From the NCBI GenBank assembly GCA_030432295.1, contig JAUIHI010000003.1, positions 124,001-188,000 on the forward strand: DNA of 64,000 nt. Direction: 5' to 3'. The stretch is from Anaerolineae bacterium (lineage in GTDB: Bacteria > Chloroflexota > Anaerolineae > Caldilineales > Caldilineaceae). Shown one piece after another: positions 38,267-59,628 of the stretch. Position 1 is the first letter of the stretch. The number at the start of each line of letters is the position of its first letter. A model generated the notes under the pieces. The model saw nothing but the letters and a program-made list of their open reading frames with translations, made no database searches and had not been told where the DNA came from. Made by a program: the position numbers and the translations under genes.

Positions 38267-38542
38267 CTACCCCTCCCGCGTCGTCGGGTCGATGATCGCC
38301 CGCACCTCGGAGATGCGGTTGGCCGGGAAGCCGCTCTGGGCCGCGTGCCGGCGGATGGCTTCGGCGTCGGGCGCGATATAGACGCAGTAGGTCTTGTCCG
38401 CCACCACATAGCTGTGCAGCCACTGGATGTGGGGACCCATCTCTTCCAACACACTGCACGACTGGCCAGCGATGGCCTGGTACTGCGCCGGCGACGACGC
38501 ACCGATCTTCGGAATTTCTCGTTCAATCACAAACTTTGGCAT
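38267..38542 (-). CDS. DUF4242 small protein (copy 1)
   Basis: The 91-residue protein starts MPKFVIEREIPKIGASSP and has SYVVADKTYCVYIAPDAEAI with a conserved Cys, then FPANRISEVRAIIDPTT. DUF4242 proteins are small ferredoxin-like (dimeric alpha/beta barrel) proteins. SCO4226 of Streptomyces is reported to bind nickel. AGGAGAAG precedes the ATG. It lies in the cassette after DUF1059. It is nearly identical to the copy at 52388-52663, which shows recent duplication. Confidence 0.88.
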   Translation of the reverse strand: MPKFVIEREIPKIGASSPAQYQAIAGQSCSVLEEMGPHIQWLHSYVVADKTYCVYIAPDAEAIRRHAAQSGFPANRISEVRAIIDPTTREG

Positions 38543-38572
38543 AGTTCTTCTCCTATTTTGTAGTCGTCAAGA

Positions 38573-38697
38573 AGATGGTGGAATTTTCAACGCAATGGCG
38601 CAAAGGAGCAGAGACGCAGAAATTGCTTTTCTCTCTGTGCCTTTGCCTCTTTGCCCCTTTGCGTTAAGAAACAGCTATTCCACCATCCCGTTGACCA
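38573..38697. repeat. GCAAAGGGGCAAAGAGG-type inverted repeat in the DUF1059-DUF4242 spacer
   Basis: GATGGTGGAATT pairs with AGCTATTCCACCATC at the ends. Inside, AACGCAATGGCGCAAAGGAG pairs with the CTTTGCCCCTTTGCGTT arm. Nearly the same spacer, end to end, follows the second cassette (52799-52923), so the spacer was duplicated with the genes. Confidence 0.8.
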
Positions 38698-38711
38698 GTA
38701 CAGTTCTTCTC

Positions 38712-38882
38712 CTATTTCTCCTGAATCTTCTGGGCAATCTCCTCGGCCATCTCCGGCGTCACCGCCACCCCGTGGACCTCTTTGGCGTGGGCCGCGGCCT
38801 GGGCCAGCACTTCTTCGACAGTCTCCGCGGTCACAACCGCCTGGCAGTCGAAGCCCACATCACTACATTTGAGCGTCTTCAT
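38712..38882 (-). CDS. DUF1059 small protein (copy 1)
   Basis: A 56-residue protein, MKTLKCSDVGFDCQAVV then ETVEEVLAQAAAHAKEVHGV. DUF1059 is annotated as a predicted small metal-binding protein. Cys6 and Cys13 plus the two His are the likely ligands. Too short for most gene callers. GAGAAGCAACAATG gives a usable ribosome site. It follows the OsmC-YdhR gene, from which it is separated by an ACCTGCCAGGT hairpin, and is followed by DUF4242. Confidence 0.85.
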   Translation of the reverse strand: MKTLKCSDVGFDCQAVVTAETVEEVLAQAAAHAKEVHGVAVTPEMAEEIAQKIQEK

Positions 38883-38910
38883 TGTTGCTTCTCCTTTGAA
38901 TGAAAAAGGT

Positions 38911-38947
38911 GCATACCTGCCAGGTTTCTGGAATCTGGCAGGTATGC
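38911..38947. repeat. GCATACCTGCCAG hairpin between OsmC-YdhR and DUF1059 genes (copy A)
   Basis: GCATACCTGCCAG (38911-38923) pairs with CTGGCAGGTATGC (38935-38947). The second cassette has the same hairpin at the same place. It could attenuate or stabilise the mRNA. Confidence 0.85.
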
Positions 38948-38963
38948 GTTCAGTTGTGTCAGA

Positions 38964-40190
38964 TTACTGCCCGTTCACCGGTGCCCGGGTGACGTGGCTT
39001 TCGGCAGCCATCACCTGATACGTTGCGATCTCGTAATTACTCAACGCAGGATGGCTCTTGACTGCACCAAACAACTCGCCGTCCATATACGTTTGCAGGG
39101 CATCGGCGTCGGCAAAGTAGTAGGCCGCACCGGCTGTCTTCGCTTCAGGATTCAGCGTCCACACCTTCCAGACCAGCCCCGGCACAGCCGCAAACATCTC
39201 AGCCATTGGCGACACTTCAGCGATATATTCATCCGCCGTGTCAAAGTCATAGGTGAACTCGACATCGAGTATCATTCCAGACTCCGCACTGGCATCAGCC
39301 ATACCCTCGCCATCGCCCCGCAACTGCGCGTGGGTAACCAGCGACTCGCTACGCATGACATCGTAGGTGCGAATGCGATAATCGCTCAGAGCGGGATGGC
39401 TTTGCACAGCGCCAAACAGTTCGCCGTCCATATAGGCCTGCCGGATATCAGAATTTTCGAAGAGGTATACGGCACCGGCACGTTTGGTTTCGGGATTCAG
39501 TGTCCAGGTCTTCCAGACCAGCCCAGGCACTGCCGCAAACATCTCGCCCATTGGCGACACTTCGGCGATGTACTCGTCCGCGCTGTCAAAGTCATAGGTG
39601 AAGGTAACATCCAGCACAGCCGTGCCCTCGCCCGCCAGCCGATTGGTAATCTCAATCGGCGCTGCCAGTTCCAGCGTGGTGTAGATAGGGCAACGCAGCC
39701 GCCACTGATCGGCCAGCGCGTCCATCTCTTCCATCGAAGGGCCGTCTGCTGTGACAGCGGCCCGGAAAGCGCGCACACGGGGGTTGACCGCCCCGTCGCT
39801 CATACCCGCCGGTGCGAAGTCGGCTTCCACATTCACGCTCAGGCTGTTCAGCGGGATATCCATCTCCACAGCAGCAGCTTCGTAGAGAAAAGCGCCGCAG
39901 GTACCCAGTGAGCCTAGAAGCATATCCATCGGATTGATCTCCTCGTTAGGACCGCCCAGCGGGGGCACGGAATCGACGAGGATGCGGTTGCCTCGGGCCG
40001 ACACAATCGCCCGTCCGTCCTGCACCATCTCCACATTGGCTTTGGCCGTAGCCAGGGTCACATCTTCCTCATCGGACTGAATAGCTGGTGCAGCGTCCGG
40101 GCCTGCTGTTTCTCGGCCCAGGGCCGCGCCGGCCACGAGCAGAGACAGAATCAATACACTGGCAAGTAAAATCGATATTCGTCGGTACAT
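38964..40190 (-). CDS. Exported OsmC - YdhR - YdhR fusion protein (copy A)
   Basis: The 408-residue protein has a signal-like N-terminal hydrophobic segment (MYRRISILLASVLILSLLVA), then an OsmC domain (about 45-190), then two copies of a YdhR-like monooxygenase fold (about 190-295 and 305-408). The OsmC thiol-peroxidase cysteines appear as Cys98 (GSLGTCGAF) and Cys167 (RLRCPIYTT), with PNEEINPMDMLLGSLG as the family helix. The YdhR repeats share EVSPM.EMFAAVPGLVWK.WTLN and YMDGELFGAV.SHPALS.Y. GGAGAG precedes the ATG at 40190. The exported thiol peroxidase fused to YdhR modules is unusual. It follows the small YFQGWEAL gene. Confidence 0.9.
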   Translation of the reverse strand: MYRRISILLASVLILSLLVAGAALGRETAGPDAAPAIQSDEEDVTLATAKANVEMVQDGRAIVSARGNRILVDSVPPLGGPNEEINPMDMLLGSLGTCGAFLYEAAAVEMDIPLNSLSVNVEADFAPAGMSDGAVNPRVRAFRAAVTADGPSMEEMDALADQWRLRCPIYTTLELAAPIEITNRLAGEGTAVLDVTFTYDFDSADEYIAEVSPMGEMFAAVPGLVWKTWTLNPETKRAGAVYLFENSDIRQAYMDGELFGAVQSHPALSDYRIRTYDVMRSESLVTHAQLRGDGEGMADASAESGMILDVEFTYDFDTADEYIAEVSPMAEMFAAVPGLVWKVWTLNPEAKTAGAAYYFADADALQTYMDGELFGAVKSHPALSNYEIATYQVMAAESHVTRAPVNGQ

Positions 40191-40500: not shown

Positions 40501-40518
40501 GCGTTTCATAACCGTTTC
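40501..40518 (-). promoter_or_regulatory. Candidate SARP/BTAD operator: two heptamers GAAACGS with 11-bp period
   Basis: On the minus strand GAAACGG (40512-40518) and GAAACGC (40501-40507) are direct repeats separated by four bases. They lie 54 bases before the ATG of the YFQGWEAL gene. The sequence after them aligns with the equivalent position in cassette B, with a shared AGGCT about 10 bases on. Heptamer direct repeats with an 11-bp period are the known operator layout of SARP/AfsR regulators. Confidence 0.6.
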
Positions 40519-40812
40519 GCACAAAAAAAGAAGTTCGACTTTTGCCAAAAGTCGAACTTCTTGAAGGACTCACAATCGATTGTTCTACCGCTGTGCGCCT
40601 ACCCCAGGGCTTTGCAGCAGTCACGAGGCCCGGAACAAACGAGTCCGAGAGAGAGTGAGCGTCGGTTGAGTAGCGGCTTTGACGCGGCCAACTCGCTTGG
40701 TTTCGACACGCTGCGCTGCTCAACCGGCGCTGATCTTGGGTGGATGACAGCGTATCGAAACCAGCGAACGGCTGACAACCGAATACTTCTCGACTTTTGA
40801 AAAGCCCTGAGC
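40519..40812. repeat. AAGAAGTTCGACTTTT hairpin and GGTTGAGTAGCG repeat between cassette A and the DinB gene
   Basis: The first part, 40529-40562, is a perfect hairpin of the AAGTTCGACTT family (also at 1700, 45526 and 55289). The second, 40655-40780, is a degenerate GGTTGAGTAG/GTATCGAAACC element. No gene is seen here. Confidence 0.75.
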
Positions 40813-41817
40813 CTACCCGGCCTGGCACTGACGGCGGATCTGCGCGATGTGGCCGATGTCGTGATTCGCTACCCAGCGGCCCAGGTCCAGGACGGACGTA
40901 ATGCGCCCCGGTCTGCTGCCCCAGCGCGACCAGAGGTCCGGCGTCAGGTCGCGCAGCAGATCCAGAACTTCCGTCCGTGTCTGGCGGAATCCAGCCACCA
41001 ACTGGGCCGCAGACCAGCTTTCGTAACCTTTGCCCTCGTGGGTCTTCCAGGCCACCTCCCGAAACACAAGTGGCTTGACCTCTGCGTCGGCCAGAAGGCT
41101 CGGCGTCAGATCCAGAAAGAGCCGGTCGGTTTCGATCAGATGGGCCATTAACTCCCAGATAGCCCACTCCTCCGGCGTAGGTTTGCGTGTCAGTGCCCCG
41201 TCGCTGATTCCCTGGACCGCGGCGGCCAGATTGTCCGGCGCTGCGGCCAAAGAAACCAACATTTCCAGAGGCAGCAGGCGGCCCAAATGTTGCGGCGTGT
41301 CATTGTAATAGGGGCCAAACTTGGCTAGCTCTGCCGACGGGGCCGCGCACAGAGGACATTGTGCCGGTTGTTCCCCTTCAATCAAATAGCCGCAATTGTA
41401 GCAGCCATAGAGAAAAATTTTTACGTCCTTTTCCAGCACATCAGGATTGCTGCTGAGACTGGCCAGACCCCGCTGTAAGATATCCCGCAACTGCTCGCTC
41501 ACCCGCTGGTTCCGTTCCAGAATAGCGTCTGCCACCGTGTCAGCATCTCCAGCTTCGCCGGTTGCAACGCCGCCGTCGGTCAGGTCCAGTTCATCCAAAA
41601 TGGCGTGAAAAAGTTGGGGGCCGTCGATGCGGGGCTGAAGCAGCCGGGCAGCATTCATCGCCAACACCCATTGAGTATGCCCAGCGGCGCGCAGAATCTT
41701 CGCCACATTGAACTGTCCCTGCAAGACTGCCGTTTCCGCCGCGCTCAAATTGCGCACATAGGCCTGTCCGCCGATGGCAACTTCGCGGCGCAAAGCCTCT
41801 GTCACTGATTTCTCCAT
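40813..41817 (-). CDS. Helical domain - rubredoxin-like - DinB-like fusion protein
   Basis: The 334-residue protein has three parts. Residues 1-130 are helical and resemble a rubrerythrin-type bundle, but I see no clear four-helix iron motif. Residues 135-162 form a rubredoxin-like knuckle, CYNCGYLIEGEQPAQCPLC. Residues 185-334 form a DinB-like four-helix domain with possible metal ligands in LMAHLIE and VANHDIGHIAQI. The gene starts inside the 3' end of the BTAD regulator gene (16-base overlap), so it should be co-translated with it. A role in thiol or peroxide chemistry is an inference from rubredoxin and from the neighbours. Confidence 0.75.
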   Translation of the reverse strand: MEKSVTEALRREVAIGGQAYVRNLSAAETAVLQGQFNVAKILRAAGHTQWVLAMNAARLLQPRIDGPQLFHAILDELDLTDGGVATGEAGDADTVADAILERNQRVSEQLRDILQRGLASLSSNPDVLEKDVKIFLYGCYNCGYLIEGEQPAQCPLCAAPSAELAKFGPYYNDTPQHLGRLLPLEMLVSLAAAPDNLAAAVQGISDGALTRKPTPEEWAIWELMAHLIETDRLFLDLTPSLLADAEVKPLVFREVAWKTHEGKGYESWSAAQLVAGFRQTRTEVLDLLRDLTPDLWSRWGSRPGRITSVLDLGRWVANHDIGHIAQIRRQCQAG

Positions 41818-44800
41818 TGCACACTCCCTTTGCGATCGTCTGGTAGTATCGCCTGCACGGGCTGTGCGGCCAGGAAAATGGCGCGCAGCTTTTCGTCTTC
41901 CAAACCGGCGGCAATGGCCTGCACAATCGACTGCGCCTCGGCCAGTAGAGCCGCTGCCTGCTCCGCCCTGCCGGTTCGTTCCATTTCCTGGGCCAGTCGC
42001 CAGCGACCCTGCCAGCGCAAGGGCTGATATTCAATGCGATCGGCCAATGCAACCGCGGCTTGCAGGCGGGGGATGCTCTCTTCAGCCCGGCCCAAGGCGG
42101 CCAGGGCCGCGCCCGCCAACTCGTGACTCAGCGCCACATACTTTTGCGCGCCTGCCGACTGGGCCAGGGAAAGGCCCTCTGCGGCCAGAGCCAGGGCATC
42201 GCTCGCCCGGTCCAGCGCCAGATAGCATAAGCCTCTGGTGTGGAGCAGACGCAGACGCCAGCGCCAGGCGTGATAGCCGTACTGCTTCTCGCCCAGTCTG
42301 GACTCCAGCCGGGCCAGTTCGTCCAGCGACCGGGACGGTTCGCCCAAACACAGCCAATCGAGGCAAAGATTGAGGCGGGCGCTGACCTCCGCCGTGATCT
42401 TTCCCCATTCCTGGGCCAGGGCCACCCCGGCCTGATCGAATGCCAGCGCGCCCGCGTAGTCGCCCAACTGCTGGTGCAGCCAGCCCCGCATATTGGGGAT
42501 TTGGGCCAACAGCGAGCGATGTTCGATGGCAGTGGCGATGGCCTCGCTGCGGTCAAAAGCAGCAAAGGCAGCGCTGTATTCGCCCAGCCCGCCCAAGGCC
42601 CGACCCCGCATATTCCAGGCAAAAGCCACCCCGGCCCGGTGTTCATCAGTCGCCTGCAACAGGTCCAATGCTTGGCCAGCGGACACAGCCGCGGCCTCAA
42701 AGTCGCTCTGCTGCCCCTGCAAAAAGGCCAGATCGGCCAGGGCACGCCCTTCCCGCCAGCGATTGTTCGTGCGCCGGGCAATCGCCAGGGCCTGCCCAAT
42801 CAGTCGGGATTCTTCGTCCAAATTGCCCCAGCGGCTGCTGTGATATTGGCCCAGCAGAGAGAGGCTCTGGGAGACGGTCTCCCAATCTTCTACCGCTTCC
42901 GACGCGGCCAATGCCTGGCGAATGTACGGTTCCGCCGCTGCCAAATCGTAGAGAGCGGAATAATAGACATCCGCCACAGCATAGAGCAGGCGGACGCGGA
43001 GGGGATCGGTATCAGGTAGCAGGGCCAGGGCCTGCTGAAAAGCCTCTACCGCGGCTGGGTAGGCTTCCACGCCAAAGCGCGCCCGGCCCAGTCCGTGCAA
43101 CGCAGTGGCCTTTGGCTCATCTGTCTGGGCCAGCGCCACGGCCTGGGCAAACAGCCCCACGGCTTGGGCAGGCAGATAGGCAGATAGTGCGTGTTCACCG
43201 GCTCGGCAGTAGTGGTGAACGGCCCGCGCCGGTTCGCCCGCGGCTTCGTAATGGGAGCCGATACGACCACCCAGCGCGTCCAGTTCATCCGCGTAGAGAC
43301 TTTCCAGGGCTGCCGCCACCCTGCGATGGAGCAGACGCCGACGTGCCCGGCTGAGTTCGCCATAGGCGGCGTCCCGGATGTAGCCGTGGCTGAAATCGTA
43401 AGCGTCCGCCCCCTGCTCGACCACAATCCCGCGCTGCCAGAGTTCGTCCAGAGCCTGCACCAGTTCGTCGTCACTCTTCTCACTGGCCCCAGCCAGAATG
43501 GCGAAGGTGAAGGCCCGCCCCACCACCGCGGCCAGCCCAGCCAGTTGGCGGGCGGATGGAGAAAGTTGGGCCAGCCGTGCGCCGATCACCGCCTGAATTT
43601 TGGGCGGTACATAGGGTATTGGGTATTGGGTGCTGGGTGCTGGTGTCGTGTCGTCAGCGTCAATAGCCGATACCCAATATCCTTCTTTTGCCCGCACGGT
43701 TTCCACCAGATAGAGGGGATGGCCTTCGCTGGCCTGAAAGAGCCGGGCCTGGGCCGCGGCGGGGAGGGCTGTCCCTGCGGCAGAGTCGGCTAGGCGCGCG
43801 GTCTCCCCAGCGTTGAGAGGCCCCAACGCAATTTCGCGCAGACGGCCAGCCATCTGTAAATGGCTGGTCAACTGAGCCAAGGGGTGATCCCCATCCAGCG
43901 TCTCCCGGCGAACGGTTCCCACGACGAGCAGGCGCACGGGAAGGGACGAGCGTAGCAGAAAGTGCAGCCATTCCAGTGTCGCCGGATCGGCCCATTGCAT
44001 ATCGTCCAGCAGTAGCAACAGGGGTTGGGGCGCAGCCGCGAAAAGTCGGGCCAGCCCTTCGAAAAAGCGCTGTCGCTGCCAATCTTCCTGTAACGGTCCA
44101 GGCTGGGGCAGGTCGGGCCTGCGCTGGAGAATTTCCGGCAACAGGCGTGCGGATTCCACCAGCCAGATGTCATCCACCTGCTCCAATGCGCTGTGCAGGG
44201 CCGGGCTGCGCAGCCATTCGGCCACAGGCGCATAGGCCAGACCGCCTTCCGCTGCATAGGCACGGGCCGTAGCTGTGGCGTGGCCTTGGCGACGTACCCG
44301 CTCCACCAAATCCTCGGCCAGTCGGGTCTTGCCGATACCGGCTTCCCCGCTGACCAGAACGAGACGGTTCTGTCCCCGGACGGCTTCCTGCCAGATCGCA
44401 TAAATCTGCCGGGATTCCCGCTGCCGTCCTATCAGCGGTAGGGTATGGGTTACGGGCGCTTCCTGGCGGCGACCAGCTTCGAAGTTCAACAACCGTTCGT
44501 AGGCTTGCCGGGTCTGGGGGGAAGGCTCGACGCCCAATTCCCGTTCCAGTGTGGTGGCGCAGGTGTGATAGATGCGCAGGGCCGCGGCCCGGTCTTCGCT
44601 GGCTGCGTACAGGCGCATCAGATCGCGATAGACGCTCTCTTGCAGGGGTTCGTGGCGCAGTAGTTGTTGGCAGCATTCAATCGCAGCCGGGTAGCGTCGA
44701 TCTTCCTCCAACAACTGGGCCAATTGTTCCAGAGCCTGGGTATACAGATTGCGCAGTCGTTCCCGGGCCCGCAACGCCCAGTCGTCGTAGATGTCGGGGA

Positions 44801-45212
44801 GCAAATCGCCGGCGTAGAGATCGATGGCCTGGCGCAGCAGTGCCTCTCGCCTGGCTCGATCGTCTGTCTCGCCGGCTGCGGCCAATGCCTGCTCAAATTG
44901 CTCCACATCCAATTCGAAGGCGTCTTCAGCCAGCCAATGCAACTCCGAGCCGCTGGTCTCCACCCAACGGTCCATCTCTGGCCAGACCTGGCGCAGCCGG
45001 TAGAAAAGGTTGCGCAGATTGGTACGGGCCTGGGCGTCGGAGGAGTCGGGCCAGAAGAGAAAGGCGATGCGCTGACGGCTGAGCGGCGTGTGGCGGTGGA
45101 GGAGAAGAAAGGCGAGCAGCCTCTGGTAGCGCGGCTGATCCAGCCCGGTCAGGGGTGTCTGATTCGACTGCAAGAGGAAGCCGCCAAGAAATTGTGCGCG
45201 TAGCGTTGTCAT
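41802..45212 (-). CDS. AfsR/SARP-like transcriptional regulator: BTAD, AAA ATPase, TPR (copy A)
   Basis: The 1136-residue protein has an OmpR-type winged helix (about 1-90, LTGLDQPRYQRLLAFLLLHR and ARTNLRNLFYRLRQ), a bacterial transcriptional activation domain of TPRs (about 95-245), an AAA/STAND ATPase with Walker A SGEAGIGKTRLAE (288-300) and Walker B LLLLLDDMQWAD, and about 12 C-terminal TPR-like repeats (about 600-1120). It should bind DNA and be switched by nucleotide and ligand. A repeat-derived linker lies at about 511-533. A strong promoter, TTGACG-N17-TATACT, ends 7 bases before ATG 45212, so the mRNA may be leaderless; ATG 45218 is an alternative start. Confidence 0.92.
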   Translation of the reverse strand: MTTLRAQFLGGFLLQSNQTPLTGLDQPRYQRLLAFLLLHRHTPLSRQRIAFLFWPDSSDAQARTNLRNLFYRLRQVWPEMDRWVETSGSELHWLAEDAFELDVEQFEQALAAAGETDDRARREALLRQAIDLYAGDLLPDIYDDWALRARERLRNLYTQALEQLAQLLEEDRRYPAAIECCQQLLRHEPLQESVYRDLMRLYAASEDRAAALRIYHTCATTLERELGVEPSPQTRQAYERLLNFEAGRRQEAPVTHTLPLIGRQRESRQIYAIWQEAVRGQNRLVLVSGEAGIGKTRLAEDLVERVRRQGHATATARAYAAEGGLAYAPVAEWLRSPALHSALEQVDDIWLVESARLLPEILQRRPDLPQPGPLQEDWQRQRFFEGLARLFAAAPQPLLLLLDDMQWADPATLEWLHFLLRSSLPVRLLVVGTVRRETLDGDHPLAQLTSHLQMAGRLREIALGPLNAGETARLADSAAGTALPAAAQARLFQASEGHPLYLVETVRAKEGYWVSAIDADDTTPAPSTQYPIPYVPPKIQAVIGARLAQLSPSARQLAGLAAVVGRAFTFAILAGASEKSDDELVQALDELWQRGIVVEQGADAYDFSHGYIRDAAYGELSRARRRLLHRRVAAALESLYADELDALGGRIGSHYEAAGEPARAVHHYCRAGEHALSAYLPAQAVGLFAQAVALAQTDEPKATALHGLGRARFGVEAYPAAVEAFQQALALLPDTDPLRVRLLYAVADVYYSALYDLAAAEPYIRQALAASEAVEDWETVSQSLSLLGQYHSSRWGNLDEESRLIGQALAIARRTNNRWREGRALADLAFLQGQQSDFEAAAVSAGQALDLLQATDEHRAGVAFAWNMRGRALGGLGEYSAAFAAFDRSEAIATAIEHRSLLAQIPNMRGWLHQQLGDYAGALAFDQAGVALAQEWGKITAEVSARLNLCLDWLCLGEPSRSLDELARLESRLGEKQYGYHAWRWRLRLLHTRGLCYLALDRASDALALAAEGLSLAQSAGAQKYVALSHELAGAALAALGRAEESIPRLQAAVALADRIEYQPLRWQGRWRLAQEMERTGRAEQAAALLAEAQSIVQAIAAGLEDEKLRAIFLAAQPVQAILPDDRKGSVQWRNQ
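43613..43680. repeat. Intergenic-type GGGTATTGGGTATTGGG repeat inside BTAD regulator A
   Basis: ATAGGGTATTGGGTATTGGG and CGATACCCAATATCC flank the segment as inverted arms. It is translated as a linker just before PPKIQAVIGARL. The same repeat type occurs at 3800-3890 near hypA. Regulator B has a different repeat at the same position of its protein. Confidence 0.75.
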
Positions 45213-45219
45213 AGGCATA

Positions 45220-45248
45220 AGTATAGATTGGGGAAAGCGGTTCGTCAA
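45220..45248 (-). promoter_or_regulatory. Consensus promoter of BTAD regulator A
   Basis: TTGACG (45243-45248) and TATACT (45220-45225), separated by 17 bases. The palindrome CAACCGGCGGTTG (45246-45258) overlaps the -35 box and could be an operator. Transcription would start at or next to the ATG. Confidence 0.8.
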
Positions 45249-52387: not shown

Positions 52388-52663
52388 TCACCCATCCCGG
52401 GTCGTCGGGTCGATAATTCGCCGCACCTCCGAAATCCGGTTGGCGGGGAATCCGCTCTTGGCCGCGTGCTGGCGGATAGCCTCGGCGTCGGGCGCGATGT
52501 AGACACAGTAGGTTTTGTCCGCCACCACATAGCTGTGCAGCCATTGGATATGGGGACCCATCTCTTCCAACACACTGCACGACTGGCCTGCAATGCCCTG
52601 GAACTGCTCCGGTGACGAAGCGCCGATCTTCGGAATTTCTCGTTCAATCACAAACTTTGGCAT
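52388..52663 (-). CDS. DUF4242 small protein (copy 2)
   Basis: The 91-residue protein is nearly identical to copy 1 (MPKFVIEREIPKIGASSPEQ, KTYCVYIAPDAEAIRQHAAK, RRIIDPTTRDG). DUF4242 members are small metal-binding candidates; nickel is reported for SCO4226. It precedes the giant surface-protein gene by 52 bases, and follows DUF1059. Confidence 0.88.
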   Translation of the reverse strand: MPKFVIEREIPKIGASSPEQFQGIAGQSCSVLEEMGPHIQWLHSYVVADKTYCVYIAPDAEAIRQHAAKSGFPANRISEVRRIIDPTTRDG

Positions 52664-52710
52664 ATCAATTCTCCTTTTGTGTGTAAAGAGTAAACGGATG
52701 AGTCCAGCGA

Positions 52711-52923
52711 AAAAACCGAGTTTTTGGCGAAAGTGGCTGGGAATCCCAGAAGTGAGTCGGCCTTAAAAACTCGGTTTTTAGCCTATTCTGTAGTCGTCAA
52801 GAAGATGGTGGAATTTACAACGCAATGGCGCAAAGGAGCAGAGATGCAAAGAGATTGCTTTTCTCTCTCTGCCTTTGCCTCTTTGCCCATTTGCGTTAAG
52901 AAATAGCTATTCCACCATCCCGT
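52711..52923. repeat. AAAAACCGAGTTTTTGG and GCAAAGGAG-type repeats in the cassette B spacer
   Basis: The left part has AAAACCGAGTTTTTGG and its partner AAAAACTCGGTTTTTAG. The right part (52799-52923) is the same inverted repeat as at 38573-38697. Together they fill 280 bases between DUF1059 and DUF4242. Confidence 0.75.
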
Positions 52924-52943
52924 TGATCAGTACAGTTCTTCTC

Positions 52944-53114
52944 CTATTTCTCCTGAATCTTTTCAGCAATCTCCTCAGCCATCTCCGGGGTCACCGGCAC
53001 CCCGTGGACCTTCTGAGCGTGGGCCGCGGCCTGGGCCAGCACTTCTTCAACGGTTTCCGCGGTCACAACCGCGGCGCAATCAAAGCCCACATCACTGCAT
53101 TTGAGCGTCTTCAT
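52944..53114 (-). CDS. DUF1059 small protein (copy 3)
   Basis: A 56-residue protein, MKTLKCSDVGFDCAAVV then AQAAAHAQKVHGVPVTPEMA, almost identical to copy 1 in both sequence and position (after the OsmC-YdhR gene, before DUF4242). The Cys pair is present. GGAGAAGC precedes the ATG. Confidence 0.87.
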   Translation of the reverse strand: MKTLKCSDVGFDCAAVVTAETVEEVLAQAAAHAQKVHGVPVTPEMAEEIAEKIQEK

Positions 53115-53142
53115 CGTTGCTTCTCCTGTGAATGCAAAAGGT

Positions 53143-53179
53143 GCATACCTGCCAGGTTTCTAACACCTGGCAGGTATGC
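53143..53179. repeat. GCATACCTGCCAGG hairpin between OsmC-YdhR and DUF1059 genes (copy B)
   Basis: GCATACCTGCCAGGT pairs with ACCTGGCAGGTATGC. It is equivalent to 38911-38947 in cassette A. Confidence 0.85.
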
Positions 53180-53195
53180 GTTCAGTGGTATCAGA

Positions 53196-54983
53196 CTATT
53201 GCCCGTTGACCGGTGCCCGGGTGACGTGGCTTTCGGCAGCCATCACCTGAAACGTTGAGATTTCGTGATCACTCAACGCCGGATGGCTCTTGACTGCGCC
53301 AAACAACTCACCGTCCATATACGTTTGCAGGGCATCGGCGTCGGCAAAGTAGTAGGCCGCGCCAGCCGTCTTCATTTCAGGATTCAGCGTCCACACCTTC
53401 CAGACCAGACCGGGAACAGCCGCAAACTGCTCGGCCAGGGGTGACACTTCGGCGATGTATTCATCCGCCGTGTCAAAGTTATAGGTGAACTCGACATCGA
53501 GTATCATTCCGGACTCTGCACTGGCATCAGCCATACCCTCGCCATCGCCCCGCAACTGCGCGTGGGTGACCAGCGACTCGCTACGCATCACATCGTAGGT
53601 CCGAATCCGGTAGTCGCTCAGGGCAGGATGGCTTTGCACAGCGCCAAACAGTTCGCCGTCCATATACGCCTGCCGGATATCAGAATTTTCGAAGAGGTAT
53701 ACGGCACCGGCACGTTTGGTTTCGGGATTCAGCGTCCAGGTCTTCCAGACCAGCCCGGGCACTGCCGCAAACATCTCGCCCATTGGCGACACTTCGGCGA
53801 TGTACTCATCTGCGCTGTCAAAGTCATAGGTGAAGGTGACATCCAGCACAGCCGTACCTTCGCCCGCCAGTCGATTCGTAATCTCAATCGGCGCGGAACG
53901 CTCGAAAGTAGTGTAGATGGGGCAGCGGCGGCTGAACTCGCCGGCCAGCATCTCCGCTTCCTCGGCAGTGGGGCCGTCTACGTGCATCGTCACCCGGAAG
54001 GCCCGTACCCGGGGATTCACATCGACACCAGCCACGCCCCGGGGATCCAAGTCCGCTTCCACATCGGCGCGCACACTGTTCAGGGTGATGTCGTTCTCTT
54101 TGGCTGCGGCTTCGTAAACCATAATGCCGCAGGCGGGCAGGGCACCGACAAAGGCGTCCAGCGGATTGACTTCCTCATTCGGACCGTGGATAGGCGGCAC
54201 AGAGTCGAAAATCCAGTGGTTGCCCCGTGCGCTCATCACACTGCGGCCAAAGCCGAACATCACACCGCTGGCCGACGGTTTGCCCAACTCCAACTCCAGT
54301 TCGTCCAGGGCGTCGTGATCCACAATGGGATCGGCCTCGGTGCTGATCGGCTCTTGGGCCATGCCCATCACCACATTCGTTACGTGGATAGGGGCAGAGG
54401 GGGCCAGGGTTGTATAGATGGGGCAGCGCTGGCTGAAAGCTTCGGCCATCATCGCCGCCTGCTCCGCATCGGGTCCCTCTACATTCATCGTCACGTGGAA
54501 AGCCCGCAGCCGGGGGCTGACAGCCGCACCAGCCACACCGCGCCCGTCCAGTTCACCGGTGACAGTGGACGACAGGTGGTTCACCGGGATATGCTGCTCG
54601 CGACCCACGGCTTCGTAGATGTACATCCCGCACGCGCCCAGCGCGGCCAACAGTCCGTCCAGGGGGTTGACCTCCTCATTCGGGCCATTCAGTGGCGGCA
54701 CAGAGTCGTAAATCCAGTGGTTGCCTCTGGCCGACATCAGCACCCGGCCCGGTCGCACCAGATCGGCGGAGGCTTTGGCTGTCACCAGTTCCAGCTCTTC
54801 CTCCTCGACATTTTCAGCCTCTTCAGCCATTGCATCAGTCTGTTCGCTCGCGCTCTCCTCTTCCGGCGCAGGCGTCGGCGTGGGGGAAGCGGTCTGGGCT
54901 GTGCCCTTTCCCACCACTGCGCCAGCCGCCAACAAAATGACGAGCAGCACACTTGCCATAGCAATCGATATTCGTCGATACAT
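53196..54983 (-). CDS. Exported OsmC - OsmC - YdhR - YdhR fusion protein (copy B)
   Basis: The 595-residue protein has a signal-like segment (MYRRISIAMASVLLVILLAA), an acidic linker (about 35-65), two OsmC domains and two YdhR-like domains. OsmC 1 (about 68-205) has Cys118 (ALGACGMYIYE) and Cys187 (QRCPIYTT). OsmC 2 (about 240-372) has Cys285 (ALPACGIMVYE) and a second RRCPIYTT cysteine. Both carry a SARGNHWIYDSVPP...GPNEEVNPLD motif. The two YdhR repeats are almost identical to copy A. The extra OsmC domain arose by internal duplication. The ATG at 54983 has AAGGAGAG upstream. Confidence 0.9.
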   Translation of the reverse strand: MYRRISIAMASVLLVILLAAGAVVGKGTAQTASPTPTPAPEEESASEQTDAMAEEAENVEEEELELVTAKASADLVRPGRVLMSARGNHWIYDSVPPLNGPNEEVNPLDGLLAALGACGMYIYEAVGREQHIPVNHLSSTVTGELDGRGVAGAAVSPRLRAFHVTMNVEGPDAEQAAMMAEAFSQRCPIYTTLAPSAPIHVTNVVMGMAQEPISTEADPIVDHDALDELELELGKPSASGVMFGFGRSVMSARGNHWIFDSVPPIHGPNEEVNPLDAFVGALPACGIMVYEAAAKENDITLNSVRADVEADLDPRGVAGVDVNPRVRAFRVTMHVDGPTAEEAEMLAGEFSRRCPIYTTFERSAPIEITNRLAGEGTAVLDVTFTYDFDSADEYIAEVSPMGEMFAAVPGLVWKTWTLNPETKRAGAVYLFENSDIRQAYMDGELFGAVQSHPALSDYRIRTYDVMRSESLVTHAQLRGDGEGMADASAESGMILDVEFTYNFDTADEYIAEVSPLAEQFAAVPGLVWKVWTLNPEMKTAGAAYYFADADALQTYMDGELFGAVKSHPALSDHEISTFQVMAAESHVTRAPVNGQ

Positions 54984-55198: not shown

Positions 55199-55257
55199 AG
55201 ACGGCTCCTTCCATACAGGTCAATTGCGGCACGGGTGCATACAGCCTGTCAGAGACA

Positions 55258-55286
55258 CCGTTGCATGACCGTTTCACAGCCGTTTC
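55258..55286 (-). promoter_or_regulatory. Candidate SARP/BTAD operator: three heptamers with exact 11-bp period
   Basis: On the minus strand GAAACGG (55280-55286), GAAACGG (55269-55275) and GCAACGG (55258-55264) are direct repeats, each separated by four bases. They lie 60 bases before the GTG of the YFQGWEAL gene. The stretch after them aligns with cassette A. The BTAD regulator B gene starts on the other side of the same gap, so it could share this site. Confidence 0.65.
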
Positions 55287-55288
55287 AA

Positions 55289-55313
55289 AGCCAGAAGTCG
55301 AACTTCTCTGGCT
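55289..55313. repeat. AGCCAGAAGTCGAACTTCTC hairpin
   Basis: AGCCAGAAGTCG pairs with the CGAACTTCTCTGGCT arm. The same family is next to the heptamers in cassette A (40529-40562). Confidence 0.75.
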
Positions 55314-55365: not shown

Positions 55366-55394
55366 TTGAAACTACTGCTGCTTTCCGTTACAAT
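55366..55394 (+). promoter_or_regulatory. Consensus promoter of BTAD regulator B
   Basis: TTGAAA (55366-55371) and TACAAT (55389-55394), separated by 17 bases. The leader is about 97 bases to the ATG. Confidence 0.75.
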
Positions 55395-55498: not shown

Positions 55499-58400
55499 AT
55501 GCCACCCATCGAGATTCGCCTGCTGGGCGGGTTTCAGATGAGCGCTGATGGAGTCTCTGTGGCCGACCTGTCAGGCCGCCAGCAGGCTTTACTTGCCTAC
55601 GTTCTTCTTCAACCCAACCAGAGTGCCTCCCGGCAACAGATCGCCTTTGCCCTCTGGCCCGAAAGCACAGACAGCCAGGCCCGCACCAATCTGCGCCGCC
55701 TGCTGTTGCTGCTGCGCCGCGCCCTGCCCCCAACCGATGAACTTTTCGACATCACACCGACTGCCGTAGCCTGGAACCCACAGATTCCCGCCTGGGTGGA
55801 CCTGCGCCGCTTTGAAGATGGGCTGAGCGAAGCCCCGGCCAGTGGTCACCCCCGGCGGGCGGCACTGGATGGGGCAGTGGCCCACTACAGCGGCGATCTG
55901 CTCCCCGACTGCTACGACGAGTGGATTCTGCCCGAACGGGAGCGGCTGCGCGTCGTCTACGGCCAGGCCCTGGCCGAACTGACCCAACTGGCCGAGAGCG
56001 AACGGGACTGCCCGGCTGCCATCGCCTATGCCCGCCGTCTGCTGCGTCACGATCCGCTCCACGAAACCAGCTACCGGCGGCTCATGCGTCTGCTCGCCCT
56101 GACCGGTGACCGGGCCGGTGCTTTGCAGAGCTATCACACCTGTGCCACCCTCCTGCACCGGGAGCTGGGCGTGGAACCCGGCCCGGAGACCCAGCAACTC
56201 TACAGCCAATTGCTCCAGCAAGACGGAGCGAGCACATCTCACTTCGCCCCCGATCACTTCGTCCCCGAACACTTCGCCACTGAACACGACCCGGCTGCCG
56301 CTCGTCTGGTCGGGCGGCTGGACGAATGGAAGGCCCTTCAGACCGCGTGGCGGCAGGCCACACCTGGCCACGCCCGCTGGGTACTCATCAGCGGCGAGGC
56401 GGGGATGGGCAAGAGTCGTCTGGCCGAGGAGATGCTGGCCTGGGCCGAACGCCAGGCTATCCCCGCGGCCCAGGCCCGGGCCTACGCCAGCGCAGGCAAT
56501 ATCAGCTATGGGCCGCTGGTCGATCTGCTGCGCAACGAAAGCCTGCGTCCCGGCTGGGAAAGGCTGGCCGACCACTGGCTGGTGGAAATCGCCCGTCTGC
56601 TCCCCGACATCCACAGCAGCCGCCCGGAACTGCCCCCGCCCCCGCCTCTGGCCGAGGAGTGGCAGAAACGGCGTCTCTTCGAAGCCCTGGCCCAGGCCCT
56701 GACCGGGGATGGCCGCCCCCATCTGCTGGTGCTGGACGATTTGCATTGGGCCGACCGGGAGAGTCTGGAATTTCTGGCCTTTCTCCTGCGCCATCCTGCC
56801 CCGGCCCGACTGCTGCTGGTGGGCACAGCCCGCACAGTCGAGATGCTGGACAACCCGGCCCTGCAAACGGTCATCCGGGAGGCAGAGGCCCAGGGACAAT
56901 TGACCCAACTCGCCCTCGCGCCACTGACTGCGGCAGAGACAGCCGAACTGGCCGTCCAGACCGGTGGGGTGGCTTTGGGTGAAGAAGCAGTGGCCGCACT
57001 CCACGCGGACTCCGGTGGCAACCCGCTTTTTGTGGAGGAGATTGTGAGATTGGGCGATTGGCGATCGGGCGTGACGACGCGCCAATCGCCAATCGCCAAT
57101 CTCGAGTCGCCAATCTCACCCCTCCCCCCCAAAATTCAGGCAGTGATTGAAGGACGACTTGCGCGTCTATCCGCCTCTGCCCGGGAAATTGCGGCCCAGG
57201 CCGCGGTGCTGGGGCGATCCTTCACCTATCCGGTGCTGGCGGCAGCGACGACGCTGGATGAGGTTGCGCTGGTGGATGGGCTGGACGAACTCTGGCGGCG
57301 GCAGGTGATCCGGGAAGTGGGCGTGGGCGGCGACGGCTACGACTTCAGCCACGACCGCATCCGGGATGTGGCCTATGGGGTGATCAGCGCGGCCCGGCGA
57401 CGACTGCTCCATCGCCGGGCCGGGGAAGCGCTGTTGCAAGTCCACGCGGGGCAATTGGGACCCGTGCGGGGGCAATTGGGCCATCACTTCGCCAGCGCGG
57501 GGGAAAATCTGACTGCCATCAGCCACTACCGCCAGGCAGCGGCTGTAGCCCTGGAACGTTACGCCCACGCCGAGGCATCCGAATACCTCACTGCCGCTAT
57601 CGGCCTGGCCGATAGCGGGGGCGACGCCGCGGTCTATCCCCTCCTGGCCGAGCGGGAGCGGGTCTATCGGCTGGCCCGGCGCACGGAAGAGTGGGTGGCA
57701 GATCTGGCCGAGTTGGCCCAACTGGTGGAACGGCTGGACGACGGCAGCCCAGCGGCTATCCAGCGTCGGGCGGGGCTAAAATTGGAAGAACACTACCGGG
57801 AGTCCCTGCTGGGAGAGAGCCATCTGGCGCTTCTCTTTGCCGAGGAGGCCGTGACCCTGGCCCTAAAGGGCAGCGATTCTCTATTGAAGGCGGAAGCGAT
57901 GATGCGGGCCGGCCACGAATTATGGGGACAAGGCAGCTTTGCCAAAGCCCGTGCCGTGTTGGAAGAGGGAGAAGCCGTGGCCCGATCCGCTGGACTGCCC
58001 AGTCTGGCCGCGGCCTCTTTGGAAAGGCAGGCCGCTCTGCAAATGTTCAGCGGCGGCAGCCCGACCCACATCCGTGGGATGCTGGATGAATGTCTACGCC
58101 TCTATCGGGAGGCAGGCGAGGTGGTAGGCGAGGCCAATATTCTGAACAAATCCGGCTATTTGACTATTGCCCAGGGGGTAGGGAATTACAGCGAGGCGCT
58201 GGAAGAGTTCAGGCAGGGGCTGGTGATTGCCGAACGCATCGGCCATCACGCAGCCGCGTTGATGTTACAACGCAATCTGGTGATGCTGCATACCTGCCAC
58301 GGAGACTACCGCCAGGCCAAGGAACATCTGATCCAGGCCCCGGTGATCCTCCGTCAACTGCAGGACGAGCCAAACCGGCCCCTGCTGCTTAACTATCAGG

Positions 58401-59071
58401 GCTTCTGGCTGCTACAGCAGGGGCGGCTGGCCGAGGCCAAAGCCATTCAACAGGAAGCCCTCGGCATTTTGCAGAAGCAAAAGCAGCAGTTGTGGGCAGT
58501 AAAAGCGATGACTGCCCTGGGGTGGAATGGGTTTTTTGAAAGCCGGTGGAAAGAGGCAGAGGCGCGGGCAACAGAAGCAATTGCCGGGAGTGAATCCTTC
58601 AGCGAAGAGCGGCAGATCGCCCACGCCTGCACACTGCGGGGCTGGGCGCGGCTACGGCTGGGCCGGGTGGACGCGGCCATCCCCGACTTTCAGCGCTCCG
58701 TCGAAATCCTTCTGCGGCTGGAAATGGCGAACCGGGCGCAGGAACCCCTGGCCGGTCTGGCCGAAGCCGTCTGCCTGCGGGGGGACGGGACCGCGGCCCA
58801 CGCCCAGGCCGTGCCCATCGCCCGCCATCTGCTCAGCCATCCCCTGGACCGCACGACGGATACATTCCTGGCCATCCAAACCGTCCACGCCATCCTCCGC
58901 GCCGGGCTTGATCCCCTGGCCGAGGATGTGAAAGGGCTGGCCCAGGCCCATCTCCAATACCGGGCGGCCCAGATCGAGCCAGCGCATTTGGATGGCTTCT
59001 GGGCATTGCCGGGTCACAAAGAGATGTTGGAGGAAAGGGCATCTGTTCCACCGTTAATCCAGAATGTGTAA
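55499..59071 (+). CDS. AfsR/SARP-like transcriptional regulator: BTAD, AAA ATPase, TPR (copy B)
   Basis: The 1190-residue protein has the same order as regulator A: OmpR-type winged helix (about 1-95, LSGRQQALLAYVLLQPNQSA), BTAD TPRs (about 98-250), an AAA/STAND ATPase with SGEAGMGKSRLAEEML and LLVLDDLHWADRES, and a TPR array (about 650-1190). It shares the PPKIQAVI box after the ATPase. Residues about 515-541 are a repeat-derived linker at the same position as in regulator A. It is divergent from cassette B and ends at a bidirectional terminator. The ligand is unknown. Confidence 0.92.
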   Translation: MPPIEIRLLGGFQMSADGVSVADLSGRQQALLAYVLLQPNQSASRQQIAFALWPESTDSQARTNLRRLLLLLRRALPPTDELFDITPTAVAWNPQIPAWVDLRRFEDGLSEAPASGHPRRAALDGAVAHYSGDLLPDCYDEWILPERERLRVVYGQALAELTQLAESERDCPAAIAYARRLLRHDPLHETSYRRLMRLLALTGDRAGALQSYHTCATLLHRELGVEPGPETQQLYSQLLQQDGASTSHFAPDHFVPEHFATEHDPAAARLVGRLDEWKALQTAWRQATPGHARWVLISGEAGMGKSRLAEEMLAWAERQAIPAAQARAYASAGNISYGPLVDLLRNESLRPGWERLADHWLVEIARLLPDIHSSRPELPPPPPLAEEWQKRRLFEALAQALTGDGRPHLLVLDDLHWADRESLEFLAFLLRHPAPARLLLVGTARTVEMLDNPALQTVIREAEAQGQLTQLALAPLTAAETAELAVQTGGVALGEEAVAALHADSGGNPLFVEEIVRLGDWRSGVTTRQSPIANLESPISPLPPKIQAVIEGRLARLSASAREIAAQAAVLGRSFTYPVLAAATTLDEVALVDGLDELWRRQVIREVGVGGDGYDFSHDRIRDVAYGVISAARRRLLHRRAGEALLQVHAGQLGPVRGQLGHHFASAGENLTAISHYRQAAAVALERYAHAEASEYLTAAIGLADSGGDAAVYPLLAERERVYRLARRTEEWVADLAELAQLVERLDDGSPAAIQRRAGLKLEEHYRESLLGESHLALLFAEEAVTLALKGSDSLLKAEAMMRAGHELWGQGSFAKARAVLEEGEAVARSAGLPSLAAASLERQAALQMFSGGSPTHIRGMLDECLRLYREAGEVVGEANILNKSGYLTIAQGVGNYSEALEEFRQGLVIAERIGHHAAALMLQRNLVMLHTCHGDYRQAKEHLIQAPVILRQLQDEPNRPLLLNYQGFWLLQQGRLAEAKAIQQEALGILQKQKQQLWAVKAMTALGWNGFFESRWKEAEARATEAIAGSESFSEERQIAHACTLRGWARLRLGRVDAAIPDFQRSVEILLRLEMANRAQEPLAGLAEAVCLRGDGTAAHAQAVPIARHLLSHPLDRTTDTFLAIQTVHAILRAGLDPLAEDVKGLAQAHLQYRAAQIEPAHLDGFWALPGHKEMLEERASVPPLIQNV
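57041..57118. repeat. GATTGGCGAT-type repeat inside BTAD regulator B
   Basis: GATTGGGCGATTGGCGATC pairs with GCCAATCGCCAATCGCC and CGCCAATCTC. It is translated in frame as LGDWRSGVTTRQSPIANLES just before PPKIQAVIEGRL. The repeat family differs from the one at the same site in regulator A. Confidence 0.8.
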
Positions 59072-59144: not shown

Positions 59145-59312
59145 CTACCCCGAAATCTTCGCTGCAATCTCCTCTGCCATCTCCGCCGTCACCGCCACCC
59201 CGTGGACTTCCTGGGCGTGGACCGCGGCCTGGGCCAGCACTTCTTCGACTGTCTCCGCGGTCACCGCCGCTGCGCAGTCAAAGCCGACATCACTGCATTT
59301 GAGCGTCTTCAT
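59145..59312 (-). CDS. DUF1059 small protein (copy 4)
   Basis: A 55-residue protein, MKTLKCSDVGFDCAAAV then AQAAVHAQEVHGVAVTAEMA, ending AAKISG. The two Cys and both His are present. It follows a truncated DUF4242 gene here, with the order of DUF4242 and DUF1059 reversed against the two cassettes. A hairpin with a T-run lies upstream, so it may have its own promoter that I could not identify. Confidence 0.85.
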   Translation of the reverse strand: MKTLKCSDVGFDCAAAVTAETVEEVLAQAAVHAQEVHGVAVTAEMAEEIAAKISG

Positions 59313-59336
59313 TTTGCTTCGCCTCTGGATGTAAAA

Positions 59337-59380
59337 ACGGTAGACCTGCCAGGTCGGCGGAAACCCGGCATGTCTACCGT
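59337..59380. repeat. ACGGTAGACCTGCCAGGT hairpin between truncated DUF4242 and DUF1059
   Basis: ACGGTAGACCTGCCAGG pairs with CCCGGCATGTCTACCGT, then TTTTT follows on the minus strand. It has the shape of a terminator at the end of the DUF4242 gene. Confidence 0.7.
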
Positions 59381-59382
59381 TC

Positions 59383-59628
59383 TCACTCCTCCTGTGTCGT
59401 CGGGTCGATAATTCGCCGCACCTCCGAAATCCGGTTGGCGGGGAATCCGCTCTTGGCCGCGTGCTGGCGGACAGCCTCGGCGTCGGGCGCGATGTAGACA
59501 CAGTAGGTCTTGTCCGCCACCACATAGCTGTGTAGCCACTGGATGTGGGGACCCATCTCTTCCAGCACCGCGCAGGACTGGCCAGCGATGGCCTGGAACT
59601 GTTCCGGCGACGAATACTGTAGTGACAC
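59383..59628 (-). pseudogene. 5'-truncated DUF4242 gene (copy 3)
   Basis: From SPEQFQAIAGQSC onward the frame matches the two intact copies, including HIQWLHSYVVADKTYCVYIA (split here for length). The normal start MPKFVIEREIPKIGA is missing and replaced by MSLQYS, because unrelated sequence joins at about 59614. The first beta strand is lost, so the product is probably unfolded. The join is next to the lipoprotein gene end. Confidence 0.7.

Follow-up and report, generated by a model that had tools for sequence, protein, structure and literature searches.

A predicted SARP-type operator between an AfsR-like regulator gene and a small-protein gene in Chloroflexota

Three direct repeats at 11-bp spacing lie upstream of cassette B in the window (the whole 64-kb stretch of DNA that was analysed). 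They very probably form a SARP-type operator that is bound by the adjacent AfsR-like protein, regulator B, and that activates the putative operon of the small YFQGWEAL gene and the OsmC-YdhR gene (Table 1). The first-pass annotation had described three heptamers with 11 bases between their starts; this was confirmed, with exact coordinates on the minus strand, and the triple is the sole site in the window with three period-11 heptamers differing at no more than one position. Its reading of this geometry as that of a SARP operator is supported by a conserved -10 at the SARP distance, by the AfsR-type regulator and by an 11-bp signal that recurs across the phylum.

Table 1. Coordinates of the features of cassettes A and B and of their regulators in the window
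Feature	Positions	Strand	Sequence	Remarks
Cassette B, direct repeat 1	55280..55286	minus	GAAACGG	preceding T at 55287 would be position -51
Cassette B, direct repeat 2	55269..55275	minus	GAAACGG	preceding T at 55276 = -40
Cassette B, direct repeat 3	55258..55264	minus	GCAACGG	preceding T at 55265 = -29
Cassette B, predicted extended -10	55243..55251	minus	TG-A-CAGGCT	hexamer 55248-55243; TG and hexamer at conserved distance in orthologues; offset histogram
Cassette B, predicted transcription start	about 55236	minus		from predicted -10
Cassette B, ribosome binding site of small gene	55205..55212	minus	GGAAGGAG
Cassette B, small gene (YFQGWEAL), 62 aa	55010..55198	minus		GTG start 55198; predicted beta-beta-beta-alpha; unnamed BTAD-linked family
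Cassette B, OsmC-YdhR gene	53196..54983	minus		N-terminal hydrophobic signal-like stretch; second gene of putative operon
Cassette B, DUF1059 gene	52944..53114	minus		downstream of OsmC-YdhR
Cassette B, SCO4226-like (PF14026) gene	52388..52663	minus		downstream of OsmC-YdhR
Regulator B (P0001)	55499..59071	plus		OmpR-type winged helix, BTAD, AAA, TPR; large SARP, AfsR-like
Sigma-70-like promoter of regulator B	55366..55394	plus	TTGAAA-17-TACAAT	separate from operator
Cassette A operator	40501..40518	minus	GAAACGG-N4-GAAACGC	third unit degenerate (TGTGGGA)
Cassette A, predicted TG and hexamer	40483-40475	minus	TG-C-TACCGG	after degenerate third unit
Cassette A, small gene, 67 aa	40243..40446	minus
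Cassette A, OsmC-YdhR gene	38964..40190	minus
Regulator A (BTAD/AAA/TPR)	41802..45248	minus		paralogue upstream of cassette A; start is the ORF's first codon, true start may be later

Operator and promoter of cassette B

The array reads GAAACGG-N4-GAAACGG-N4-GCAACGG (55286-55258, minus strand), with start-to-start distances of 11 and 11. Every heptamer is preceded by T, giving the 8-mer units TGAAACGG/TGAAACGG/TGCAACGG, and the minus-strand sequence from 55292, GGCTTTGAAACGGCTGTGAAACGGTCATGCAACGGTGTCTCTGACAGGCT, contains the complete triple. Markov sequences modelled on this 300-bp intergenic region gave an equally good period-11 triple once in 20,000 trials, while a triple of that quality at any period from 8 to 22 arose in 9 of 3,000. 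Genome-wide scans (pattern searches and fetched loci) found one further match to the triple pattern in the 6.7-Mb genome when up to 3 mismatches were allowed, and this match lies upstream of another BTAD gene. Searched genome-wide with one mismatch, GAAACGG-N4-GAAACGG gave 5 hits, two of them overlapping at the cassette B site, versus 8 control hits, which is chance level; hence, single sites of this kind mean little out of context.

A canonical -35/-10 pair was sought on the minus strand at the cassette B promoter and was not found. If CAGGCT, a weak hexamer, is taken as the -10, the repeats begin at -51, -40 and -29; the TGCAACGG 8-mer plus the 9 nt that separate it from CAGGCT then place the start of the -10 17 bp after that of the repeat, the same distance as in afsS. 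The 3′ repeat thus lies about 8 bp from the predicted -10, with the start position being likewise predicted. At 17 nt from this -10 the sequence is CGGTCA (55271-55266), which is unusable as a -35, and the promoter therefore looks activator-dependent. Given that the operator overlaps the would-be -35, and that the direction of regulation is not readable from sequence alone, it might be proposed that the BTAD protein represses, with the repeats over the -35 region blocking polymerase. We consider this very unlikely: there is no usable -35, the register is the one that the activator AfsR uses, and the same layout recurs at many loci. Within the putative operon, a perfect 15-bp hairpin followed by TTTT (53143-53179, minus strand) separates OsmC-YdhR from the DUF1059 gene and is possibly a terminator or attenuator.

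Regulator B, its paralogue and the orthologous promoters

The BTAD/AAA/TPR regulator that had been noted across the gap is borne out as a divergent gene on the plus strand, of AfsR type by domains, sequence and predicted fold. Its product has an N-terminal OmpR-type winged helix followed by BTAD, as defines the SARP family, and the nucleotide-binding and TPR domains that define a large SARP; Pfam matches are BTAD (3.6e-22), AAA_16 (1.7e-24) and TPR_12 (4.1e-16). By sequence it matches AfsR at 2.9e-10 and EmbR at 2.6e-12, and by profile the value is 1.6e-28. The N-terminal 250 residues were modelled with an AF2 pLDDT of 95, and the predicted fold of residues 1-250 has a Z of 21.7 to AfsR (8k60) and 19.2 to EmbR, the next best being 11.8. 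AfsR contacts DNA through Q48, W74, P79, T88, R94 and K95 (PMC10936776). In the alignment, W74, S80, Q81, R87 and R94 of AfsR are kept in regulator B, while K95 is changed to R, Q48 to R, P79 to D, T88 to R and R92 to L. The specificity of AfsR is hence not transferable to regulator B, since both base-contact residues (T88 and R92, here R and L) differ, in line with its different heptamer. The consensus-like promoter of regulator B lies 80 bp from the cassette B operator, and the gene is divergent from the small gene.

We envisage the following mechanism. On the three 8-mer units, regulator B monomers would sit next to one another, each contacting one 11-bp turn with its winged-helix domain. 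The two downstream monomers, at -40 and -29, would stand in place of a -35 element and bring RNA polymerase to TGaCAGGCT, the weak extended -10, from which both minus-strand genes, the small gene and OsmC-YdhR, would be transcribed. Regulator B itself would be made from its own constitutive-looking promoter and would probably be gated by ATP through its AAA/TPR part, as in AfsR.

A search with the small protein found cassette A of the same window as well as copies in relatives. The enzyme parts of the two cassettes share 86-89% DNA identity from mid-OsmC-YdhR to the SCO4226-like gene (38267-40190 and 52388-54983), which points to a duplication of recent date or to gene conversion. Small genes and promoters, in contrast, have diverged, and the upstream parts give no DNA alignment; features common to both upstream regions are informative for this reason. 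Just before the cassette A operator lies a terminator (40528-40562), a perfect 17-bp hairpin with a T run, one arm of which, GAAGTTCGACTT, survives beside the cassette B operator, at about 55294-55311. The half-terminator GAAGTTCGACTTCTGGC beside the cassette B operator was considered as a second operator and rejected, because it matches an arm of that real terminator in front of cassette A and is more likely a relic. DUF1059-like and SCO4226-like genes occur as a pair a third time, in reversed order, at 59145-59628, downstream of a long gene.

The first-pass annotation had proposed a search of orthologous promoters for the repeats. When this was done, the repeats were present and the -10 was conserved at the SARP distance. 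The named close relatives are Caldilineaceae MAGs, one of them labelled Litorilinea aerophila; four Caldilineaceae/Litorilinea loci from a narrow-alignment scan of named genomes are the promoters of L071-L073 and were not recounted. GAAACG-type units at 11-bp spacing occur in all eight promoters (cassettes A and B, same genus and same family). Three good units are found in cassette B, in the B-type copies L071 (5496) and L073 (4129), and in L072; only two are found in L069 (A), L071 (12150), L073 (6052) and L074. In all eight, a TG follows 7-8 nt past the third unit; the hexamer at 10-15 nt always contains A and in most cases ends in T (CAGGCT, CAGGCT, TACGCT, CAGACT, TACGCT, TACCGG, CATCGT and GAAGGT). 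The array might nonetheless be due to chance, or be a remnant of duplicated cassettes with no regulatory role, as the near-identity of the enzyme parts could suggest. This we find scarcely credible: promoter and small-gene parts have diverged yet the repeats are kept, other genera included, their distance to the -10 is fixed, and the 11-bp signal recurs in an independent phylum-wide set.

A more serious alternative is an operator of the same kind that has regulator A as its main binder, or that is shared by the two paralogues, with cross-regulation of the cassettes as the result. GAAACGG-N4-GAAACG[GC] is common to both cassettes, and the recognition helices of A and B are closely related, both with ARTNLR. 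However, the third repeat stays GCAACG[CG] in B-type orthologues and has this form only in B-type promoters, which adjoin B-type regulators (helix TNLR[RG]LL.LLRRAL) in four genomes, whereas A-type promoters, with a degenerate third unit, adjoin A-type regulators in two genomes. We therefore regard binding chiefly by regulator A, or by both, as rather doubtful, and regulator B as the probable main binder at cassette B.

An 11-bp signal across Chloroflexota

The YFQGWEAL small-gene family is present in 87 of 400 Chloroflexota genomes and has the motif FxVRxWxE..WRGxVxHVxSGExRYF. No model for it was found in Pfam or NCBIfam, and a Foldseek search of the small protein against the PDB gave nothing below E 0.6. 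A BTAD gene lies within 2.5 kb of the small gene at 49 of 65 loci in a first set and at 41 of 60 in a second, which comprises independent loci from other genomes across the phylum; given the 27 BTAD genes in the 6.7 Mb of the source genome, only a few per cent of loci would be linked by chance.

For a motif-free count, the best 8-base self-match of each small-gene upstream region was taken at every lag. In the first set, lag 11 gave at least 7 of 8 matches in 37 of 64 promoters and exact matches in 19, versus 2-14 and 0-5 at other lags; a control region downstream was flat at 11. The second set repeats this, with 37 of 60 and 18 at lag 11 versus 1-14 and 0-5. After removal of promoters sharing any 12-mer, 11-bp repeats persist in 48 of 86, versus 4-19 at other spacings. 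Heptameric direct repeats at 11 bp, which define a SARP-type operator, are thus found at cassette B, in its orthologues and in the locus sets, while about 40% of small-gene upstream regions show no clear 11-bp repeat. Across 74 promoters, TAnnnT hexamers cluster 6-12 nt past the last 8-mer, with 51 hits, and none occur at 13-16 nt. Upstream of 105 BTAD genes the 11-bp signal is weaker (35 versus 9-26), so that the small gene, and not the regulator gene, seems to be the main target.

The repeat sequence varies among loci, in step with the recognition helix of the closest BTAD protein. Helix NNLRVTINR is paired with operator CGGTAAT, NNLRQALAN with TAAACGAT, ANLRRHLH with TTTGGACG, [SN]NLRREL...RSQW with GGATCGCC, LSTTLWR/LATALWR with TGTGA/GGTGATG, and TNLR..LLLLRRAL with GAAACG. 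A Mantel test of helix against operator gave r = 0.27 (0 of 2000 permutations), versus 0.01 +/- 0.04 for random upstream words; among distantly related pairs (below 50% BTAD identity) the coefficient drops to 0.14 (14 of 2000), and the correlation, being partly explained by shared descent, is support and not proof.

OmpR/PhoB-family response regulators also use 11-bp direct repeats, a spacing shared by OmpR-type winged helices. In Streptomyces, PhoP binds the AfsR site (PMC10972967), and the cassette B array might accordingly be read as a Pho-box-like site for such a response regulator. This is highly improbable, however, as the sites adjoin BTAD genes in the proportions given above and their sequence varies by locus with the neighbouring BTAD helix; one response regulator would keep one consensus.

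Two other arrays were seen in the source genome. A BTAD gene on contig 34 (L139, 4640-4760) has a divergent four-unit array, GAAACGG/GAAGCGC/GAAGCGT/GAAGCGC; TATGCT stands at the appropriate distance, and the array faces the gene of a 380-aa protein whose N-terminus is signal-like. Another, on contig 9 (L135, 5060-5110), has CGAACGC/CAAACGC/CAGACGC in front of itself, which is possibly autoregulation.

Taken together, these results incline us, with some reserve, to the view that SARP-type regulation is a phylum-wide device in Chloroflexota, where BTAD regulators of many specificities would each govern an adjacent copy of a single conserved, unnamed small protein (beta-beta-beta-alpha), as AfsR controls AfsS. 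The small protein would then be their general effector or signal partner, and the natural operator/helix pairs would let the SARP DNA code be read. If this holds, AfsR-like activation and its operator code predate antibiotic control and extend beyond it, dozens of uncharacterised Chloroflexota BTAD/AAA/TPR regulators gain predictable target promoters, and a new small-protein family becomes a defined target. The natural pairs of operator and recognition helix would likewise be material for working out SARP specificity.

Comparison with known systems

Regulator B resembles AfsR of Streptomyces coelicolor (PMC10936776) as a large SARP with an OmpR-type domain, BTAD, nucleotide-binding and TPR parts. 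At the afsS promoter, AfsR occupies 11-bp repeats at -40 and -29, the 3′ repeat being 8 bp from the -10, and the promoter has a weak -10 and a poor -35 (PMC10936776); cassette B likewise has 11-bp repeats at -40 and -29, a weak predicted -10 and no good -35. It differs in its third repeat, at -51, in the divergent arrangement of regulator and putative target, and in its heptamer (CGTT[TC]ATCGNN for AfsR), with base-contact residues changed in regulator B. Unlike that of AfsR/afsS, the putative operon also holds OsmC-YdhR, and the phylum is Chloroflexota.

In both systems a small gene appears as the target, of 63 aa for AfsS and 62 aa in cassette B, where this role is predicted. AfsS has three repeats of a 12-aa segment (PMC2267785), whereas the cassette B protein, predicted to be beta-beta-beta-alpha, has none: its best 12-aa self match has 4 identities. 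The small protein thus resembles AfsS in size and place only, although as a target it may have a role comparable to that of afsS.

The operators of ActII-ORF4, DnrI and PimR (PMC10972967, PMC5930380) also consist of three heptamers, and those of PimR are likewise separated by 4-nt spacers. Unlike these, cassette B is without an identified antibiotic pathway and its repeat sequence differs; the PimR array lies upstream of the -35, whereas that of cassette B lies over the -35 region. EmbR of Mycobacterium tuberculosis (2FEZ) shares the winged helix and BTAD of regulator B, with a fold Z of about 19, and has an FHA domain instead of AAA/TPR. Cassette B would thus represent a known mechanism in a new phylum, Chloroflexota, with a new small-protein partner.
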